64,000 nucleotides of DNA from Bacteroidia bacterium (lineage in GTDB: Bacteria; Bacteroidota; Bacteroidia; Bacteroidales; Prolixibacteraceae). Below, piece after piece: positions 31,307-56,088 of this stretch (its first letter is position 1; every line of letters begins with the position of its first letter). The notes under the pieces were generated by a model. That model had not been told where the DNA came from. It did not search any database and saw only the letters and a program-made list of their open reading frames with translations. The DNA lies in the NCBI GenBank assembly GCA_026391655.1, contig JAPLDR010000022.1, forward strand, positions 1 to 64,000, written 5' to 3'. A program made the translations under genes and the position numbers.

Positions 31307-31753
31307 ATGGAATTGCATAACTTAAAACCTGCAGAAGGTTCCACCAGGAAAGAGAAACGAATCGGACGAGGACAAGGTTCTGGTCATGGGGGTACATCAA
31401 CCCGCGGACACAAGGGAGCCAAATCGCGTTCAGGTTACAAATCGAAACGTAGTTTTCAGGGAGGTCAGATGCCGCTGCAGCGTATTGTACCAAAATTCGG
31501 TTTTACAAACGTGAACAGGGTCGAATATAAAGGGATCAACCTTAGTTCTTTACAAACAATTGCTGAAGAAAACAGCCTTACAGTTATTGATTTTCAGTCT
31601 CTTCAAAATGCCGGTTTTGTCGGCAAAAATGATAAGGTAAAGATCCTTGGCAATGGAGAATTGAAATTGAAACTTGATGTGAAAGCACATGCTTTTTCAA
31701 AGAGTGCAAAAGAGGCAATTGAGAAACTGGAAGGAACTACTGAAATACTTTAA
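31307..31753 (+). CDS. rplO: 50S ribosomal protein uL15
   Basis: 148 aa. Basic N-terminal GRGQGSGHGGTSTRGHKGAK and RSFQGGQMPLQRIVPKFGF identify it. It ends 5 nt before secY. Confidence 0.98.
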   Translation: MELHNLKPAEGSTRKEKRIGRGQGSGHGGTSTRGHKGAKSRSGYKSKRSFQGGQMPLQRIVPKFGFTNVNRVEYKGINLSSLQTIAEENSLTVIDFQSLQNAGFVGKNDKVKILGNGELKLKLDVKAHAFSKSAKEAIEKLEGTTEIL

Positions 31754-31758
31754 ACCGG

Positions 31759-33129
31759 ATGAAAAAACTAATCGAGACACTTAAGAACATTTATAAGATT
31801 GAGGATTTACGATCACGGCTTGGATTGACGCTGTTGCTTTTGGCGGTTTACCGTTTTGGCTCATTTGTTATTCTACCTGGTATCGATCCTAATCCTGCAA
31901 ATTTTGCAGCTTTACGAAGCCAAAGTTCCGACGGGATTCTTGGATTATTAAATATGTTCTCGGGTGGTGCATTTTCTAATGCATCAATTTTCGCGTTGGG
32001 AATTATGCCTTACATCAGCGCCTCGATTGTTATCCAACTTTTAGGTTTTGCTGTTCCTTACATTCAGCGGTTACAAAAAGAAGGAGAGTCAGGCCGCCGC
32101 AAAATTAACCAGATGACACGTTATCTTACGGTTATCATCCTGGTTTTTCAGGGTTGGGCATATTTGGCCAACTTGCGGTTCCAGCTTCCTGAATCCGCTT
32201 TTGTAATGAGCGCCTTTGCCTTTAATGTTAGCTCAACAATTGTGATGGCTGCCGGTTCAATGTTTATCATGTGGCTCGGAGAACGAATCACTGACAAAGG
32301 TATCGGAAACGGTATTTCTATGATCATCATGATCGGTATTATTGCACGATTGCCACACTCGTTAGTGCAGGAATTTGGAAGCCGGCTGGCTGAGCAAGGT
32401 AAAGGCTTCATCATGATCATTATCGAGATGTTAATCTTCCTGTTCGTTATTGCAGCAACCATTCTTTTGGTTCAGGGAACCAGAAAAGTGCCTGTTCAAT
32501 ATGCCAAACGAATTGTTGGTAATAAGCAGTATGGCGGAGTTCGCCAATATATACCTTTGAAAATTAATGCTGCAGGGGTTATGCCGATTATCTTTGCACA
32601 GGCCTTCATGTTTATTCCCATGATGGTCGGAGCACAAGCCATTATGTTTGTGCCGATCAGTTTAGCTGGGTTATTCTCCTCCGATACGCTAAAAAGCATG
32701 ATGTCATCTTTCTCTAATTATGACGGGTTCGTATATAATTTTACGATGTTTCTGATGGTCATCGTGTTTACTTATTTCTACACGGCCATTACGGTTAATC
32801 CGAATCAGATGTCGGATGATATGAAAAAGAACGGCGGATTTATTCCTGGAATTAAACCTGGTAAGAAAACATCTGAGTATCTTGATACAGTTATGTCGAG
32901 AATCACTCTGCCCGGATCTATCTTTCTTGGATTGATTACTATACTTCCTTCATTTGCAAGGATATTAGGGGTGTCTTCAGAATTTTCACATTTCTTTGGA
33001 GGGACTTCACTGCTTATCCTTGTAGGTGTAATTTTGGATACGCTTCAACAAATCGAAAGTCATTTGTTAATGCGCCATTACGATGGTTTGCTGAAATCAG
33101 GACGTATTAAAGGACGTACTGGTGTTTAA
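31759..33129 (+). CDS. secY: Protein translocase subunit SecY
   Basis: 456 aa with ten predicted membrane helices. Family marks: PYISASIVIQLL in TM2, LQKEGESGRRKINQMTRYLT in the first long cytosolic loop, and a pore-plug region between GGAFSNASIFALG and PYIS. It is the channel of the Sec system, working with SecE/G and SecA in the inner membrane. It closes the spc part of the block. The methionine aminopeptidase gene that commonly follows secY in Bacteroides is absent; a 460-nt gap follows instead. Confidence 0.98.
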   Translation: MKKLIETLKNIYKIEDLRSRLGLTLLLLAVYRFGSFVILPGIDPNPANFAALRSQSSDGILGLLNMFSGGAFSNASIFALGIMPYISASIVIQLLGFAVPYIQRLQKEGESGRRKINQMTRYLTVIILVFQGWAYLANLRFQLPESAFVMSAFAFNVSSTIVMAAGSMFIMWLGERITDKGIGNGISMIIMIGIIARLPHSLVQEFGSRLAEQGKGFIMIIIEMLIFLFVIAATILLVQGTRKVPVQYAKRIVGNKQYGGVRQYIPLKINAAGVMPIIFAQAFMFIPMMVGAQAIMFVPISLAGLFSSDTLKSMMSSFSNYDGFVYNFTMFLMVIVFTYFYTAITVNPNQMSDDMKKNGGFIPGIKPGKKTSEYLDTVMSRITLPGSIFLGLITILPSFARILGVSSEFSHFFGGTSLLILVGVILDTLQQIESHLLMRHYDGLLKSGRIKGRTGV

Positions 33130-45369: not shown

Positions 45370-45786
45370 ATGGAAACGACACCCGGAATTTTGAGCATGA
45401 TTTACGAAATGAAGAAAAAATGCGCCCAGGTCGACCAGCGGTTAATGGATGATTTGAATATCTCGCAGTCGGAATTGCTTTTCTTTTCAGCGTTGAACAA
45501 TTGCCAGGGACTAAGCAGCCCTGAACTGGCGAAGAATATGGGACTTTCACTTTCTCGCATAAGTCGGGTAGTCGATAAATTGGTGGTAAATGGTTATCTC
45601 GACCGAAATGCCGATGCAACCGACAGGAGAGCAATAACGTTGTGTCTTACAGCGAAAGGGAAGATGATTCGGGGTAAAATTGACGAGGTTCGGAATGAAT
45701 GTGAAGCAAGGTTGCTTGGAACGATTCCTTCAGGGGATATTGAACGCTTCCGGGAAATAATTTCCAAAATTGTTATAAATATGTGA
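45370..45786 (+). CDS. MarR family transcriptional regulator
   Basis: 138 aa. Winged helix-turn-helix with [24 protein letters not shown] as the recognition region (core [12 protein letters not shown]) and the wing [17 protein letters not shown] containing the DxRxxxLxLT-like motif. Cys18 in the first helix (MKKKCAQVD) sits where OhrR-type members carry their redox cysteine; a second Cys is in NNCQGL. Divergent trxA-osmC and the paired palindromes suggest it senses oxidants or an aromatic ligand. Which of the two is not decidable from sequence. Confidence 0.9.
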
Positions 45787-45803
45787 TTTTTAATTTTCAA
45801 GAT

Positions 45804-47102
45804 ATGATCTGGAACGAGAAAATTGAATGCGCAAGTCGTGAAGAGATGCGGATTATCCAGTCCGAAAGATTGTGCGAAACGGTAAAACGCATTTATCACA
45901 ACGTCCCCTATTACCGGAAAAAGATGCAGGAAGTGGGACTTACGGCGAATGACATTCACGATATTGACGATCTTCATAAACTTCCGTTTACGACTAAAAT
46001 CGATTTGCGCGACAATTATCCATTTGGATTGTTTACCGTTCCCATGAGTGAAATTGTGCGTTTACATGCCTCTTCGGGAACAACCGGAAAGCCAACGGTG
46101 GTCGGTTATACACGCAAAGATATACAAATGTGGGCAGAGGTCGTGACCCGTTCGTTAGTGATGGCCGGCGTTCATCGTAATGATATTGTGCAGATTGCCT
46201 ATGGTTACGGGTTGTTTACAGGTGGTCTTGGATTACACTATGGAACCGAAAACCTGGGCGCTTCTGTCATTCCGATCTCGGGCGGGAATACCCACAAACA
46301 GATACAGTTAATGGAAGATTTCGGCAGTTCTGTCTTGTGCTGCACTCCTTCGTATGCACTCAACATTGCGGAGGTGATGAAAGAGATGAAGGTAGATATT
46401 AATAATCTGAAACTGAGAGTCGGGATATTTGGTGCAGAACCGTGGTCGGAAGCGATGCGCAAAGAGATCGAAACCAAGCTAAAAATAAAAGCGATCGATA
46501 TATATGGCTTGAGTGAAATTGTTGGACCGGGTGTTTCTTGTGAGTGTGAATATCAATGTGGTATGCACATTAATGAAGACCATTTTTTGCCGGAGCTTAT
46601 TGATCCTGAAACATTGCAACCAGTTGCTCCGGGCGAGATTGGAGAACTTGTGTTTACTACGATTACCAAGGAAGGGATTCCTTTGATCCGGTACCGGACG
46701 CGCGATCTTACACGACTTGTCTACGACAAGTGTGCCTGCGGGCGTACGCTCGTGAGAATGGAAAAATGCAAAGGACGAAGTGACGATATGCTGATAATCA
46801 GGGGTGTAAATGTTTTCCCGTCACAGGTGGAAACCGTTCTTTTGAACATGAGTGAAGTAGAACCACATTACCTGATTATTGTTGATCGTGAGGGAACACT
46901 CGATATGATGTCGGTAATGGTAGAGGTTCAGGAGCAATTTTTCTCTGATGAGATTAAAAAACTTCAGGAACTTCGCCAGAAAATTATGCGTAACCTTGAA
47001 AGTGTACTTGGGATATCCGTAAATGTGAAACTTGTTGAACCAAAAACGATTGAGCGGACAGCGGGCAAAGCAATACGAGTGATTGACAATCGGAAGATTT
47101 AA
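45804..47102 (+). CDS. paaK: Phenylacetate-CoA ligase (PaaK-like)
   Basis: 432 aa from the ATG at 45804 ([15 protein letters not shown], the family start); a GTG at 45783 would add seven residues. The AMP-binding signature is [33 protein letters not shown] and [11 protein letters not shown] are typical of PaaK enzymes. It activates phenylacetate or related arylacetates to CoA thioesters with ATP. In anaerobic Bacteroidota and Archaea, PaaK is often linked to ferredoxin oxidoreductases for aryl-pyruvates, as here. It is 17 nt after marR and 38 nt before the ACT gene. Confidence 0.92.
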
Positions 47103-47140: not shown

Positions 47141-47566
47141 ATGCTGATCAAACAATTATCAATTTTTCTTGAGAACAAGTCCGGAAGATTGAATGAAGTA
47201 TCACAAATACTTGGAAATTCCGGAATCAATATGTCAGCCTTCTCTGTAGCCGATACCTCTGAGTTTGGTATTTTGCGGTTGATTGTTTCTGATCCTGAAC
47301 GTGCTTGCAAAGTTTTGCATGATAATCAGTTTTCGGTTAGTCTTACCGATGTGGTTTGCCTCAACTGTCCGAATGAACCGGGTGCTTTAGCCAAGGCGCT
47401 TCAGATTTTATCCGATAATAAGGTTTCAATTGAATACCTTTATGCCTATTCTATGGGCGATTCAGCCAATGTTGTCTTAAAACCTGATCAGCTGGAGCAA
47501 TGCATCAAAGTTTTGCAGGAGCATAAAATGGAGCTTGTAAAAGCAAGCGAGTTGTACAAAATATGA
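47141..47566 (+). CDS. Double ACT-domain protein
   Basis: 141 aa, two tandem ACT domains: residues 1-70 (LIKQLSIFLENKSGRLNEVSQILG) and 71-141 (VVCLNCPNEPGALAKALQILSDN). ACT domains bind amino acids. Such proteins recur next to PaaK and aryl-pyruvate oxidoreductases, so it may report aromatic amino-acid levels. The transcript ends at the terminator at 47590. Confidence 0.88.
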   Translation: MLIKQLSIFLENKSGRLNEVSQILGNSGINMSAFSVADTSEFGILRLIVSDPERACKVLHDNQFSVSLTDVVCLNCPNEPGALAKALQILSDNKVSIEYLYAYSMGDSANVVLKPDQLEQCIKVLQEHKMELVKASELYKI

Positions 47567-47661: not shown

Positions 47662-48498
47662 GTGAAAAAAGTTTCAATTCAGGGGATAAAAGGTTCGTTC
47701 CACGAGGATGCTGCCCGTCAATATTTCAGCGAGGAGATTGAAATAGTTGAGTGCAAGTCGTTTCGAAGCGTCTGCGAACTCATTGACACAGATAAAGTTG
47801 ACTATGCGGTGATGGCTATCGAAAATTCTATTGCCGGAAGCATTCTTCAGAATTACTCATTGATTCGCGATTATCACCTTCGCATCATCGGCGAAATCTA
47901 TATCCATATTCAGATGAATTTAATGGCGCTTCCCGGTGTTCGTAAGAAAGATATAAAAGAAATCTATTCACATCCGGTCTCATTTCTTCAATGCGCCGAA
48001 TATTTGGAGAAGTATTTCCCGAATGTTGAAACCAGGGAACTTGGAGATAATGCTGCTGTTGCCAAACTGATCGCTAAAGAGAAAATCACCTATGCAGCCG
48101 CGATCAGCAATTTAAGGTCGGCGGAACTATATGGTCTTGAGATACTTGAAAGGGGTATTGAAAGTAATAAAAAGAATTACACGCGATTCCTGATTATGGC
48201 CAAGCATGCCACCTCATCCGAAAACGCCAATAAAGCCTCCATCTGTTTTGAGGTAGGCCATTTTCATGGTGCTTTGGCTAAAGTTCTGAATACCTTTGCT
48301 GAACATGAAATTAACCTGACAAAAATTCAATCATTGCCGATCATCGGAAAACCCAATGAATACTCTTTTCATGTCGATATTGAATGGGATTCGATTGAAA
48401 ACTACGAAAAAGCCATACATATGGTGCTGAAAAATGTCTCCAGTCTTGCTATTCTTGGAGAATATGTCAGGGGAGAAGTATCTATTCACAACCAATAA
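47662..48498 (+). CDS. pheA: Prephenate dehydratase
   Basis: 278 aa, GTG start. The catalytic PDT domain (1-180) has IQGIKGSFHEDAA at the start and the essential TRF in NKKNYTRFLIM. The ACT regulatory domain (190-275) carries LTKIQSLPIIGKPNEY where many homologues have ESRP, a common Bacteroidota variant. It converts prephenate to phenylpyruvate, the step before phenylalanine. It is the first gene of the operon with the flavodoxin-like gene, the aminotransferase and the oxidoreductase. Confidence 0.95.
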   Translation: MKKVSIQGIKGSFHEDAARQYFSEEIEIVECKSFRSVCELIDTDKVDYAVMAIENSIAGSILQNYSLIRDYHLRIIGEIYIHIQMNLMALPGVRKKDIKEIYSHPVSFLQCAEYLEKYFPNVETRELGDNAAVAKLIAKEKITYAAAISNLRSAELYGLEILERGIESNKKNYTRFLIMAKHATSSENANKASICFEVGHFHGALAKVLNTFAEHEINLTKIQSLPIIGKPNEYSFHVDIEWDSIENYEKAIHMVLKNVSSLAILGEYVRGEVSIHNQ

Positions 48499-48508
48499 AT
48501 ATTTAGTT

Positions 48509-48997
48509 ATGAGTAAAATAGCTATTTTTGTAGCCAAATTCCTGGCGGCAAAGATGGAAAATCAAAAGCCGGATCTGATCCTCGTAAATGAGGCATCGAC
48601 CGAAGATTTGGCACGTTATGATACCATTATCTTCGGTATCTCGACAATAGGTCGGGATACATGGGATCAAAAGTTTGGAAATGTTGATTGGTCTAAGTTT
48701 ATGCCGACGATTTCTTCGTTCGATTTTACGGGGAAAAAAGTTGCCATTTTTGGTTTGGGTGATCATATCACCTACGCTTACCATTTTGTCAATTCAATGG
48801 GAATTCTTGCCAGACTCATAGTCAAAAACGGGGGACAGCTTTTAGGAAAAGTAAGTCCGGAAGGCTACACTTTTCAGGACTCCGATGCTCTTGAAGGAGG
48901 TCTTTTTCTTGGTTTACCAATTGATGAGGATTTCGAACCTGAATTAACCGAAGACCGTTTGAATTGTTGGGTTGAACAATTAAAAAATGAGTTTTGA
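48509..48997 (+). CDS. Flavodoxin-like protein without the FMN phosphate loop
   Basis: 162 aa. Clear long-chain flavodoxin features: IIFGISTIGRDTWDQKF (60s-loop region), KKVAIFGLGDHITYAYHFVNSMG (core IFGLGDHITYAYHFVNSMG), SPEGYTFQDSDALEGGLFLG and the C-terminal LPIDEDFEPELTEDR. The N-terminus reads MSKIAIF directly followed by VAKFLAAKM; the expected loop of about 12 residues, S/T-x-T-G-x-T, which holds the FMN phosphate, is missing in frame. FMN binding is therefore doubtful. It sits 10 nt after pheA and overlaps the aminotransferase by four bases, so it is an operon member. A longer frame from 48434 overlaps pheA and is not family-like. Confidence 0.75.
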   Translation: MSKIAIFVAKFLAAKMENQKPDLILVNEASTEDLARYDTIIFGISTIGRDTWDQKFGNVDWSKFMPTISSFDFTGKKVAIFGLGDHITYAYHFVNSMGILARLIVKNGGQLLGKVSPEGYTFQDSDALEGGLFLGLPIDEDFEPELTEDRLNCWVEQLKNEF

Positions 48998-50337
48998 ATC
49001 AGATCAGTCGAAATAATACGCCAATAAACGGAGAAATTGTTGAGCGTAAAATTGAAGAGCTCAACGTTCCCGATATTGGGAATGCTTCCATCAGGGAAAT
49101 CGTTCAACTGGTTAGCAGCATCGAAGCTGTCACAGGCGACCGTTTTATTCGTATGGAAATGGGGGTTCCTGGTCTTCCACCTGCAAAAGTAGGTGTAGAA
49201 GCCGAGATTGAAGCATTGCGTAACAATGTCGCATCAGTATATCCCCGCATTGATGGTATTCAACCGCTGAAAAACGAAACTTCGCGATTTGTAAAGCTCT
49301 TTCTTGATATTGATGTTAAGCCAGAAGGTTGTGTTCCAACAGTTGGCTCAATGGAAGGAAGTTATGCAGCATTTTTGGTCTCCGGTAGCTGTCGGAAAGA
49401 ACGCGATACAGTGCTGTTTATCGATCCTGGATTTCCTGTTCAAAAACAGCAGCTTCTTGTGATGGGACAGAAATACGAAACTTTTGACATATTCGATTAT
49501 CGCGGGGAGAAACTTCGTGCAAAACTCGACTCCTACCTCTCAAAAGGAAATATCAATTGTATCATCTATTCAAATCCAAATAACCCTTCGTGGATATGTT
49601 TCAACGACGAGGAACTCAAAATTATAGGAGAACTTGCTAATCAGTATGATATTGTTATAATTGAGGATCTTGCATACTTTGGAATGGATTTCCGGCAGGA
49701 TATCTCCCGTCCCGGAGTTCCCCCTTATCAGGCTACAGTTGCCCGCTATACTGGTAACTATATATTGATGATTTCCAGCTCAAAAGTCTTTTCGTATGCG
49801 GGACAGAGGATCGGAGTGATCGTAATTTCGGATGCCCTTTATCACCGCCATTTCCCTTATCTTGAAGAACGATTAAAAGTTCATGGATTTGGTAATGCAA
49901 TAGTTCATAGGGTATTATATTCATTAACATCGGGCACTTCCCACTCTTCTCAGTATGCTTTAGCGGCAATGTTTAAAGCTGCCTGTGACGGAACTTTCAA
50001 CTTCATCGAAGAGGTGAAAGAGTATGGCGAAAAGGCTAAAATCATGAAGAAACTGTTTATCGAAAATGGGTTTACGATTGTTTACGATGCTGATCTTGGG
50101 CAGCCTGTTGGCGATGGATTCTACTTTACTATCGCCTATCCAGGTATGACGGGAGCCGTATTGCTGCACAAACTTCTTTATTACGGAATTAGCGCCATTT
50201 CGCTAAGCAAAACAGGAAGTACAAAAGAGGGATTAAGAGCATGTGTGTCACATGTAAAAAGAGATCAGTTTCACGATCTGGAAATCAGGCTTCAGCAATT
50301 TAATTCAGATTTTCCGGTAAAATCTGAACAAGTATGA
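48994..50337 (+). CDS. PLP-dependent class I/II aminotransferase
   Basis: 447 aa with a TTG start overlapping the previous stop by four bases (TTGA); the first in-frame ATG lies too deep to be the start. SNPNNPSW, EDLAYFGMDF and the PLP-lysine region SSSKVFSYAGQRIG are visible, with the substrate-carboxylate Arg in GLRACVSHV. Class I/II aminotransferases of this kind act on aromatic or branched amino acids. Position between pheA and the oxidoreductase suggests it interconverts phenylpyruvate and phenylalanine. Confidence 0.88.
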   Translation: MNQISRNNTPINGEIVERKIEELNVPDIGNASIREIVQLVSSIEAVTGDRFIRMEMGVPGLPPAKVGVEAEIEALRNNVASVYPRIDGIQPLKNETSRFVKLFLDIDVKPEGCVPTVGSMEGSYAAFLVSGSCRKERDTVLFIDPGFPVQKQQLLVMGQKYETFDIFDYRGEKLRAKLDSYLSKGNINCIIYSNPNNPSWICFNDEELKIIGELANQYDIVIIEDLAYFGMDFRQDISRPGVPPYQATVARYTGNYILMISSSKVFSYAGQRIGVIVISDALYHRHFPYLEERLKVHGFGNAIVHRVLYSLTSGTSHSSQYALAAMFKAACDGTFNFIEEVKEYGEKAKIMKKLFIENGFTIVYDADLGQPVGDGFYFTIAYPGMTGAVLLHKLLYYGISAISLSKTGSTKEGLRACVSHVKRDQFHDLEIRLQQFNSDFPVKSEQV

Positions 50338-50645: not shown

Positions 50646-51731
50646 ATGGGTGAGTTAAGATTAATGAAAGGGAATGAGGTAATTGCCATAGCGGCAATCA
50701 GATGTGGAGGTGATGCTTATTTCGGTTACCCCATTACACCGCAGTCCGAAGTTATGGAGACTTTAATGGCGGAGCGTCCATGGGAAGATACCGGAATGGT
50801 CGTTTTACAGGCAGAAAGTGAAATTGCCTCAATTAATATGGTTTATGGGGCAGCAGGTTGCGGAAAGCGGGTGATGACTTCATCCTCAAGTCCGGGTATT
50901 AGCCTGATGGCCGAAGGGATCTCATATATGGCAGGGTCTGAACTACCTTGCGTGATTGTAAATGTGCAGCGTGGCGGACCGGGTCTGGGAACAATCCAGC
51001 CATCGCAAGCCGATTATAATCAAGCAACTAAAGGTGGCGGCCATGGCGATTATTCTTTGCTTGTTCTCGCTCCGGCTTCGGTGCAGGAGATGCACGATTT
51101 TGTAGTTCTTGGATTTGAACTTGCATTTAAATACCGTAATCCAGTGATGATCCTTGCTGATGGTGTGATTGGACAGCTTATGGAGAAAGTTAAACTGATC
51201 GACCAACGTCCACGTTGGACAAACGAGCAAATTGCAGAGATATCTGGAAGTTGGATTACGGTTGGAAAATCAAAAAACCGCAAAAAACACGTAATCACAT
51301 CTTTGGAGATGGATTCTTCCATTATGGAAGGAAATAACCTCAGGCTTCAGGAAAAATACAATCGGATGAAAGCTGAAGAGGTTCGTTTTGAAGCCATTGA
51401 ATGTGATGATGCGGAGTATATTTTAGTCGCTTTTGGATCTGCAGCCCGTATTTGTCAGAAAACAGTTCAGATTGCCCGCAAAAAAGGTGTGAAGGTTGGT
51501 CTGATTCGCCCGATCACTCTTTTCCCATTCCCCGAGAAAATCATTTCGGAATATGCCACAAAAGTGAAAGGTTTTCTTTCGGTTGAATTCAATGCCGGAC
51601 AGATGGTCAATGATATCCGTTTGGCTGTAAATGGGAAAACCAGGGTTGAGTACTTCGGTAGGATGGGTGGTATAATTCCTCCGCCTGACGAAGTTGAAGT
51701 AGCTCTTCATCAAAAACTAATAAAAGGATAA
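50646..51731 (+). CDS. vorB: 2-oxoacid:ferredoxin oxidoreductase alpha subunit (VorB-like)
   Basis: 361 aa. MKGNEVIAIAAIRCGGDAYFGYPITPQSE, trimmed to its core GYPITPQSEVME, marks the pyrimidine-binding transketolase part; QAESEIASINMVYGAAGCGKRVMTSSSSPG and NVQRGGPGLGTIQPSQADY are typical of the 2-oxoglutarate/2-oxoisovalerate group. Together with the beta, gamma and delta subunits it oxidises a 2-oxoacid to acyl-CoA and reduces ferredoxin, or runs in reverse for reductive carboxylation. Substrate is not fixed by sequence; the gene context argues for aryl-pyruvates. Confidence 0.92.
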   Translation: MGELRLMKGNEVIAIAAIRCGGDAYFGYPITPQSEVMETLMAERPWEDTGMVVLQAESEIASINMVYGAAGCGKRVMTSSSSPGISLMAEGISYMAGSELPCVIVNVQRGGPGLGTIQPSQADYNQATKGGGHGDYSLLVLAPASVQEMHDFVVLGFELAFKYRNPVMILADGVIGQLMEKVKLIDQRPRWTNEQIAEISGSWITVGKSKNRKKHVITSLEMDSSIMEGNNLRLQEKYNRMKAEEVRFEAIECDDAEYILVAFGSAARICQKTVQIARKKGVKVGLIRPITLFPFPEKIISEYATKVKGFLSVEFNAGQMVNDIRLAVNGKTRVEYFGRMGGIIPPPDEVEVALHQKLIKG

Positions 51732-51733
51732 CT

Positions 51734-52546
51734 ATGTCTGTATTAGCTGATAGAATCAAAGAAATTATTAAACCGGAAAATCTGGTTTATGCAAAATCAC
51801 CTGTTCTGAACGACGATATCATGCATTATTGTCCAGGATGCAGTCATGGAGTAGTCCACCGGTTGATTGCCGAGGTGATTGACGAGATGGGAATTCAGGA
51901 TCAGACGATTGGTGTTTCACCTGTCGGATGCTCGGTTTTTGCCTATAAATACATCGACATCGACTGGCAGGAAGCTGCTCATGGTCGTGCTCCGGCTGTC
52001 GCAACGGGTATAAAAAGGGTATTGCCGGATAAATATGTTTTTTCCTATCAGGGAGATGGCGATTTAGCTGCAATTGGAACAGCCGAGACTTTTCATGCTG
52101 TGAACCGCGGCGAGAATATCGTGATGATTTTTATCAATAATGCCATTTATGGCATGACCGGAGGACAAATGGCTCCGACAACTTTGGTTGGCCAGATTAC
52201 CTCAACCACGCCCTACGGCAGGAACGTGGATTTGAATGGTTATCCTTTGAAAATCACTGAATTATTGGCACAATTGCCGGGCGCTGCCTATGTAACGCGT
52301 CAAAGCGTTCAGAATCCTGCAGCGGTCCGCAAAGCAAAAAAAGCGATTCGTAAAGCATTTGAAGTTCAGGCGCTGAAAAAAGGAACTGCTTTTGTCGAGG
52401 TAGTATCAACTTGTAGTTCAGGATGGAAACTTAATCCTGTTGATTCGAACAAATGGATGGAAGAGAATATGTTTCCTCAGTATCCGCTTGGTGATCTGAA
52501 AGATAGTTCCCGTGCTGATGCTGATTTGTATCGCATCAAAGGTTAA
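51734..52546 (+). CDS. 2-oxoacid:ferredoxin oxidoreductase beta subunit (TPP-binding)
   Basis: 270 aa. The TPP/Mg site is GDGDLAAIGTAETFHAVNRG with NNAIYGMTGGQMAPTT downstream. HYCPGCSHG carries the cluster-linked cysteine pair of this subunit. Two bases after the alpha gene, so translation is coupled. Confidence 0.93.
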   Translation: MSVLADRIKEIIKPENLVYAKSPVLNDDIMHYCPGCSHGVVHRLIAEVIDEMGIQDQTIGVSPVGCSVFAYKYIDIDWQEAAHGRAPAVATGIKRVLPDKYVFSYQGDGDLAAIGTAETFHAVNRGENIVMIFINNAIYGMTGGQMAPTTLVGQITSTTPYGRNVDLNGYPLKITELLAQLPGAAYVTRQSVQNPAAVRKAKKAIRKAFEVQALKKGTAFVEVVSTCSSGWKLNPVDSNKWMEENMFPQYPLGDLKDSSRADADLYRIKG

Positions 52547-52570
52547 TTCTATTTTAAAAAAACTGAAAAA

Positions 52571-53122
52571 ATGACGGAAGAAATCATAATAGCAGGATTT
52601 GGCGGACAAGGGGTTCTTTCTATGGGAAAAATCCTTGCTTACTCAGGAGTGATGCAGGATCAGGAAGTGGCCTGGTTCCCCTCGTATGGTCCCGAAATGA
52701 GGGGTGGTACTGCCAATGTTACTGTTATCCTCAGTGACGAACGGATCAGTTCTCCGATCCTCAACGAGTACGATACGGCCATCATTCTGAACCAGCAATC
52801 GATGACCAAATTCGAATCTCGTGTAAAAGTTGGAGGCACACTAATTTATGATCCTAACGGGATAGTAAAGCACCCTTCGCGGAAGGATATCAATATTCTG
52901 AGGGTGGAAGGCTCCAAACTGGCAATCGAAATGGGTAATCCATTGACATTTAATATGATTGTCCTTGGGGCTTTTTTAAAGGCAAAGCCTGTAATCAAAC
53001 TGGAAAATGTAAAAAAAGGGCTTGAGAAATCGTTGCCCGAACGCCACCATAAACTGATTCCGCTAAATCTGGCGGCTATCGACAAAGGACAGGAAAACCT
53101 GGAGGTGGTTCAGACGGTGTAA
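52571..53122 (+). CDS. 2-oxoacid:ferredoxin oxidoreductase gamma subunit
   Basis: 183 aa. IAGFGGQGVLSMGKILAYSG and SYGPEMRGGTANVTVILSDE are the POR gamma signatures (CoA-binding part). Last gene of the operon; a degenerate repeat follows. Confidence 0.93.
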   Translation: MTEEIIIAGFGGQGVLSMGKILAYSGVMQDQEVAWFPSYGPEMRGGTANVTVILSDERISSPILNEYDTAIILNQQSMTKFESRVKVGGTLIYDPNGIVKHPSRKDINILRVEGSKLAIEMGNPLTFNMIVLGAFLKAKPVIKLENVKKGLEKSLPERHHKLIPLNLAAIDKGQENLEVVQTV

Positions 53123-54855: not shown

Positions 54856-56088
54856 ATGGATAAAATTAAAGTTGGGGTATCCTCCGAAATTGGTTTGCTG
54901 GAAGGGGTCATCCTTCATACACCAGGTCACGAAGTTGAGAACATGACACCCGAGAATGCCCAGCGGGCACTCTACAGCGACATTTTAAACCTTTCGGTCG
55001 CAACAAAAGAGTATGTACATTTGAAAGGGGTGTTGGAGAAGGTGACCCACACTTTTGAAGTCAAAGATTTATTAAGGGAGACGATTGAAGATGACCGTAT
55101 TAAAGAGGATCTCGTAAGGAGGATTTGCATACAGGAAGATGCCGCCTCTGAAGTTGAATTCTTACTCAATACTCCGAATACTCTGCTTGCCATTCAATTG
55201 ATTGAAGGCGTTGTGCTACGGCGCGACAATCTGACCCGTTTCCTGAGCAAGGAACGTTATTCGATGCGTCCTTTGCATAACTTTCTCTTTACACGCGATG
55301 CCTCCATGACACTTTGGGACGAAGTCCTGATTGGTAAAATGGCCAGTAAAGTTCGTGAGCGGGAGCCGTTGATTATGGAGGCGATCTTTAAGAATCATCC
55401 GGCTTTTAGTGTAAAAACGATAAATCCGGCAACGCTCACCGCAAATTTGGGTAGTTTTCCAAATGCCACTATCGAAGGTGGTGATGTTCAGATTGCCCGT
55501 GAAGATGTTTTGGTGGTGGGAACGGGCTCGCGAACCTCAACTGAAGGGATCGACTACCTCATTGAAGTGATTAAGGCAAAGAAGACAAGTCAGAAACATA
55601 TTATAATACAGGAACTTCCAGATAGTCCTGAATCATTTATCCACCTCGATATGACTTTCACATTTCTGGATAAAGATGTCTGTATGGTATACGATCCTCT
55701 AATACTCAAAAACAATAAGTTTCATACTATTCAAATCACTATTGATAATGGGAAAGTTAATAGTATTGGTTTTAATCTCGACCCCGTGTTTTGCGGAGGT
55801 AAGCAGGATCCATGGATTATGGAGCGGGAACAATGGCACAGCGGAGCAAATTTTTTTGCATTCGCCCCTGGCAAAGTGATTGGTTATGAACGCAATGATT
55901 ATACACTCGACGAGATGAGTAAACACGGTTTCGAAATTATCCGGGCGGTTGATTTAATCGAAAACAGGGTTAACCCTGACGATTTTCAAAAGGCTGTGAT
56001 CACGATTCCGGGTTCCGAGCTTGCAAGAGGAGGTGGTGGCGCTCGCTGTATGACGATGCCAATATGCCGGCAAAAGGTTGATTGGTAG
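54856..56088 (+). CDS. arcA: Arginine deiminase
   Basis: 410 aa, the usual length. Motifs: SEIGLLEGVILHTPGHE at the start, LFTRDASM, IEGGDVQ, HLDMTFTF and the C-terminal catalytic-cysteine segment ARGGGGARCMTMPI (Cys about 398). It hydrolyses arginine to citrulline and ammonia. No arcB, arcC or arginine/ornithine exchanger lies nearby, so ATP-yielding fermentation would need genes elsewhere. Confidence 0.95.
   Translation: MDKIKVGVSSEIGLLEGVILHTPGHEVENMTPENAQRALYSDILNLSVATKEYVHLKGVLEKVTHTFEVKDLLRETIEDDRIKEDLVRRICIQEDAASEVEFLLNTPNTLLAIQLIEGVVLRRDNLTRFLSKERYSMRPLHNFLFTRDASMTLWDEVLIGKMASKVREREPLIMEAIFKNHPAFSVKTINPATLTANLGSFPNATIEGGDVQIAREDVLVVGTGSRTSTEGIDYLIEVIKAKKTSQKHIIIQELPDSPESFIHLDMTFTFLDKDVCMVYDPLILKNNKFHTIQITIDNGKVNSIGFNLDPVFCGGKQDPWIMEREQWHSGANFFAFAPGKVIGYERNDYTLDEMSKHGFEIIRAVDLIENRVNPDDFQKAVITIPGSELARGGGGARCMTMPICRQKVDW

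Follow-up and report, generated by a model that had tools for sequence, protein, structure and literature searches.

The flavodoxin-like gene at positions 48509..48997 of the window, i.e., the whole 64,000-nt stretch of the Prolixibacteraceae assembly G000 analyzed here, lacks the segment encoding the phosphate-binding loop for flavin mononucleotide (FMN), and this gap is private to this one assembled genome. The gene, fld, is the operon-linked long-chain flavodoxin of the Prolixibacteraceae, situated between pheA and an aminotransferase gene, and its loop gap is a private, blunt 30-nt deletion in the assembled genome. We consider it fairly probable that the gap is an assembly-level defect and not evolution of the protein, and infer that the reads or living cells carry the loop.

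The gene (plus strand) is an open frame of 162 codons and a stop, which lacks 10 codons between the β1-strand and the α1-helix; it begins MSKIAIFVAKFLAAKMENQ, and its 162-residue product starts MSKIAIFVAKFLAAKM. Strand β1 (MSKIAIF) directly abuts helix α1 (VAKFLAAKM), and the match to the Pfam domain Flavodoxin_1 (PF00258; 39.8 bits, cut-off 25) is entered only at profile position 14, and therefore the loop is absent from the window protein; three intact orthologues score 48.6–52.2 bits. The stop codon and the TTG with which the aminotransferase gene starts at 48994 overlap. The sequence-only reading of this region thus rightly described a flavodoxin-like frame that is open, coupled to the next gene and devoid of the loop, but overestimated the gap as approximately 12 residues or 36 nt: the alignment to the three nearest relatives (G007, G008, and G002) yields exactly 30 nt, or 10 residues (YGPENGAVHR). 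The junction lies at 48528..48530 (plus strand), its placement being ambiguous by 1 nt, and junction homology versus the same relatives is just 1 nt, which speaks against direct-repeat slippage as the cause.

The comparison of orthologues, set beforehand as a test, shows loops in the relatives and hence points to a defect of this strain. All 15 other orthologues read in the same genus (L004–L018) carry the loop segment, e.g., IFYGPENGAVHRVAK; the same-genus genomes G001 and G017, both incomplete (82 and 78%), gave no orthologue. With paralogues counted, 129 out of 140 family genomes match at E ≤ 1e-25. The family places listed at E ≤ 1.4e-57 number 121 and come from 119 genomes, the last three belonging to the related WPxGGSV group; 120 of them start at model position 1 and none of these falls short of its span by more than one residue, the window alone starting at position 18. 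In the order (393 genomes), every other place among the matches listed starts at model position 5 or earlier. Loss of the loop, which a cofactor-free family would share, is thus seen in the window alone out of the 121 family places listed. An open-access literature search found nothing on a loop-less flavodoxin, nor on this clade or operon.

The classical phosphate-binding loop has the consensus [ST]x[ST]GxT, with which the loop of the Anabaena flavodoxin, GTQTGKT, agrees; it is absent from the window protein, and intact relatives have GPxxG[SA]V in its place, so that the missing loop is not of the S/TxTGxT type initially presumed. In the Anabaena protein, Trp57 and Tyr94 are the aromatic residues stacking on the flavin. 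The corresponding W62 and Y99 are invariant among 23 aligned sequences and retained in the window protein as W52 and Y89, and the protein shares the fold and the stacking Trp and Tyr with long-chain flavodoxins (TIGR01752/FldA; Anabaena 1flv). Across the loop, the intact orthologue L033 can be aligned gap-free to the Anabaena flavodoxin, with GPENGAVHR where the latter has GTQTGKTES; its 50s loop is five residues longer, and the window protein, unlike the Anabaena one, has no phosphate loop. The score of the window protein against TIGR01752, 132.1, is below the cut-off of 146.75, which two out of three intact orthologues pass (147.7, 148.3, and 145.9). Long-chain flavodoxins are described in PMC4122359 as having an extra segment splitting the last β-strand; this segment is present, since both L033 and the window protein align there gap-free to the Anabaena long-chain flavodoxin. 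HmuF/FldH likewise are flavodoxin-superfamily proteins departing from the classical role, but the conserved phosphate loop is retained in them and an additional subdomain holds heme, and the available text on them shows no link to the fld operon (PMC10404700).

AlphaFold2 models based on family alignments place the α1-helix of L033 at residues 14–25 (pLDDT 88.6, pTM 0.87), and that of the window protein, cut short, at residues 10–15 (pLDDT 80.8, pTM 0.81); the confidence of the first ten residues is 67 in the window model versus 89 in that of L033. The best Foldseek match of both models is an Anabaena flavodoxin, with TM-scores of 0.89 for the intact protein and 0.85 for the gapped one. The fold can be modelled even with the loop missing, which is no proof of stability. 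Without the phosphate loop and the N-terminal half of the α1-helix, the 162-residue protein as written is expected to have little or no affinity for FMN.

The rest of the gene is not visibly decaying, as judged from its substitutions. The dN/dS ratios of fld to the two nearest relatives, 0.04 and 0.05, are close to those of its neighbors (0.03 for pheA, 0.04–0.05 for the aminotransferase gene), all these figures being rough because synonymous sites, with dS above 1, are almost saturated. The ratio of private non-synonymous to synonymous changes in fld is 6:15 on the window branch, and 5:12 and 3:9 on the sister branches; it is 13:36 versus 1:14 and 11:30 in pheA, and 21:44 versus 7:46 and 17:40 in the aminotransferase gene, respectively. 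Had constraint been lost for at least 20% of the branch, so few amino acid changes in fld would be unlikely (P 0.01–0.02 at 20%, assuming 3.2 non-synonymous sites per synonymous site). As constraint is not visibly lost along the branch, the gap must be recent, harmless, or not real.

The gap in fld is accompanied by others. We surveyed 183 kb of the 5.0 Mb genome G000 (contig C80 and 20 kb of C94), polarizing gaps against stretches of ten same-genus genomes, and found five further private short deletions, in genes for an arginine deiminase, a serine hydrolase, FeoB, an isomerase, and an ornithine transaminase. At least six private gaps, 30–121 nt in size, are thus present in the examined sequence, and three out of six break the frame. 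The arginine deiminase family gene, located in the window at 54856..56088 (plus strand), contains the second in-frame deletion, of 39 nt or 13 codons at approximately 55759; its frame is open though 13 residues of the aligned relatives are missing, which indicates that fld is not the only target of the deletions. The third in-frame gap, 93 nt, is in a β-lactamase-fold serine hydrolase (PF00144) on C94. The frame is broken by gaps of 121 nt in feoB (C80:119591, L179; three supporting genomes), 77 nt in the isomerase-like gene (C80:141151; L207, G000:C80:139145-142642), which has a continuous match in ten out of ten other genomes searched, one of them containing TGA, and 47 nt in the ornithine transaminase gene (C80:156108, L181), where the protein of the one supporting genome fits TIGR01885 nearly end to end. 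Junction homology is 0–1 nt at five out of six gaps, and 6 nt at the 47-nt one. SecY (31744-33126) has a private 12-residue insertion at about 32596, absent from the three relatives compared and resembling an imperfect repeat of the adjoining segment; it was left out of the gap counts.

In-frame gaps were accepted at identity of at least 65% and coverage of at least 75%, with conserved flanks, at least two supporting genomes, and none against. Frame-breaking events were restricted to net losses of at least 20 nt, two supporting genomes not being required: one out of three such events in G000, and one out of three in G003, has a single supporting genome. Junctions of +1, -1, +2, -11, -40, and +32 nt appearing at looser limits, many of them at ORF ends, were left out.

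In-frame private deletions of at least eight residues were found in three out of 89 ORFs of G000 versus none out of 427 in the ten same-genus genomes (Fisher p = 0.005). For all gap classes, including frame-breaking gaps of at least 20 nt, the counts are 6/89 versus 4/427 (p = 0.003), where stop-to-stop ORFs were counted, so that numerators and denominators are not exactly matched for broken genes, shadow frames being present in all genomes alike. Since fld itself had drawn attention to this contig, both tests were recomputed with fld left out (p = 0.03 for in-frame gaps and p = 0.009 for all classes). If two supporting genomes are required, the counts are 5/89 versus 3/427 (p = 0.005), or 4/88 versus 3/427 (p = 0.02) with fld left out as well. 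The base-rate test is weaker without fld, and its direction is kept. The G000 assembly thus shows an excess of private short gaps, whatever the frame, as an artefact would produce. In-frame gaps account for three out of six in G000 and three out of ten overall; neither share differs from the one third of a frame-blind process (p = 0.41 for three out of six), and six events are too few to exclude mild selection on the frame. Sister assemblies also have frame-breaking gaps, three in G003 and one in G002; those in G003 (L175, G003:C29:20001-40000) include gaps in the gene for ribosomal protein L15 (55 nt) and in the fld-operon aminotransferase gene (124 nt). Spurious gene breaks due to low-coverage assembly have been documented for RefSeq assemblies and in E. 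coli simulations, according to the available text of PMC11017572, which does not treat the fld case.

Given the five other private gaps, three of them frame-breaking, an assembly-level origin is the leading reading of the fld gap, and an open frame becomes a weaker argument for function. Against this reading, the in-frame half of the gaps (30, 39, and 93 nt) exceeds the expected one third and would also fit real deletions partly filtered by selection; the sister assemblies G003 and G002 have frame-breaking gaps too, so that the pattern is not unique to G000; and the sample covers 183 kb out of 5.0 Mb with 89 comparable ORFs, one out of six gaps relying on a single genome. Of the two explanations originally offered for the gap, a recent in-frame deletion and a cofactor-free protein, the deletion class stands, the gap being private and blunt in a conserved frame, and the other is unsupported. 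A real and very recent 30-nt loss in the strain, which would have disabled flavin binding and been tolerated because other electron carriers are proposed to exist (a second flavodoxin-like gene is found at G000:C94), is a lesser possibility. It would account for one clean event in an otherwise conserved frame, for private changes (6:15) near those of the sisters (5:12 and 3:9), which make long relaxation unlikely, and for the presence of the paralogue in the genome; however, five similar gaps in unrelated genes, including feoB, ask for a genome-wide cause.

That loss of the loop has been fixed and is functional, yielding a flavodoxin-like protein that carries no cofactor and partners with the oxidoreductase or aminotransferase, seems very improbable. 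The frame is intact with no visible relaxation of constraint, the fold is still predicted (pLDDT 80.8, pTM 0.81), and the gene overlaps the aminotransferase start, but none of the other listed family places is without the segment (120 out of 121 start at model position 1) and no other genome among the matches listed has lost the loop, the flavin-stacking Trp and Tyr are retained, and the model has lost half of the α1-helix, its confidence being below that reached for the intact orthologue (88.6, pTM 0.87). The chance that a different start or frame supplies the loop from elsewhere is negligible: an in-frame ATG is present upstream at 48434, but the extension overlaps pheA in another frame, and several relatives that do have the loop show a similar short open extension. 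An alternative start or frame was rejected, as the 30 nt are missing from the DNA.

The genomic context suggests what the intact protein may do. In the window, all on the plus strand, fld is preceded by genes for a PaaK-like phenylacetate–CoA ligase (45783..47102; TIGR02155, 608 bits, below the cut-off of 646), a tandem ACT-domain protein (47141..47566; PF19571, 121.8 bits), and the prephenate dehydratase PheA (47662..48498; PF00800, 198.5 bits), and followed by genes for a class I/II aminotransferase (48994..50337; PF00155, 68.4 bits; TTG start) and the 2-oxoacid:acceptor oxidoreductase subunits vorB-vorA-vorC (50646..53122; VorB, NF005507, 536 bits with a cut-off of 399; the other two subunits, PF02775 and PF01558). 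The order paaK, ACT, pheA, fld, aminotransferase, vorBAC is recurrent: counted by eye, with some contigs ending too soon, pheA upstream and the aminotransferase gene downstream of fld are seen in 38 out of 45 loci, vorB in 30, and a paaK match upstream in 21. Judging from the families named, the operon might form aromatic amino acids from prephenate and, via reductive carboxylation, from arylacetates, with the flavodoxin as the electron carrier. The intact protein is presumably a flavin electron carrier, and the chances that its partner is the neighboring 2-oxoacid oxidoreductase are about even. Four Draconibacterium loci (L057, L058, L075, L076) keep pheA and the aminotransferase gene and have neither paaK nor vor within 8 kb on each side; hence, the partner may not be the neighboring oxidoreductase everywhere.

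The flavodoxins linked to pheA and the aminotransferase gene have an unusual phosphate loop, GPxxG[SA]V[HN]R. In 54 distinct orthologues with both genes adjoining, position 10 is always Pro, position 12 is never Ser or Thr, position 13 is always Gly, position 14 is Ser (39) or Ala (15), position 15 is Val (51) or Thr (3), and position 17 is Arg in 50; the fragment L077, which has no loop, was dropped, and 41 sequences with no link seen, mostly paralogues and other groups, were not pooled with these. By contrast to three out of 54 pheA-linked proteins, Thr15 is kept in nine out of 13 flavodoxins with only the aminotransferase gene seen adjoining, and one of the four Val15 cases among the 13 comes from a contig ending short of pheA. 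Flavodoxins with GPxGG[SN]TE loops from other families of the same order share Pro10 and Gly13, and a similar aminotransferase gene adjoins some of them. Five paralogues from other genomes of the family (L113, L115–L118) have the loop GS[TDS][TN]GNTE, which shows that the usual loop does occur in this bacterial family. The second flavodoxin-like gene of G000 (L002, G000:C94) encodes the loop SFNSKKTAK; in this second protein of the genus (L002, L107–L110, L112, L114) the pattern is SFxSKKTAK, with Lys replacing the loop glycine, a feature that may be paralleled by the Fusobacterium nucleatum flavodoxin of PDB 6ohk (mutant K13G by title). One further flavodoxin group (L073, L074, L122–L124, L126) has the loop WPxGGSV or WPKDGST, again with Pro at position 10.

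Phosphate binding in the flavodoxins of E. coli is the task of this loop, whereas ring binding falls to the 50s and 90s loops (PMC4122359). Since the two aromatic residues of the ring-binding loops, Trp and Tyr, are the same in all 23 aligned sequences, the flavin is more likely bound through an altered anchor than not bound at all, and the intact pheA/aminotransferase-linked flavodoxin probably still binds a flavin. A broader proposal, which we hold to be rather improbable, is that the whole pheA/aminotransferase-linked clade, having lost the three hydroxyl residues (positions 10, 12, and 15) with which classical flavodoxins grip the FMN phosphate, would use another anchor (Ser14, the backbone, Arg17) or a phosphate-free flavin and be tuned to a dedicated arylpyruvate oxidoreductase, the gap in the window being a chance end-point of a loop under altered demands.

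Thus, what looks like the birth of a new protein class may be a clean gap that preserves the frame in an assembled genome, and such gaps can be exposed by a cheap check, that is, by polarizing short gaps across sister genomes and counting the frame-breakers. The intact operon flavodoxin, lacking the usual loop hydroxyls, provides a testable lead to the minimum that FMN binding requires of the classical loop.
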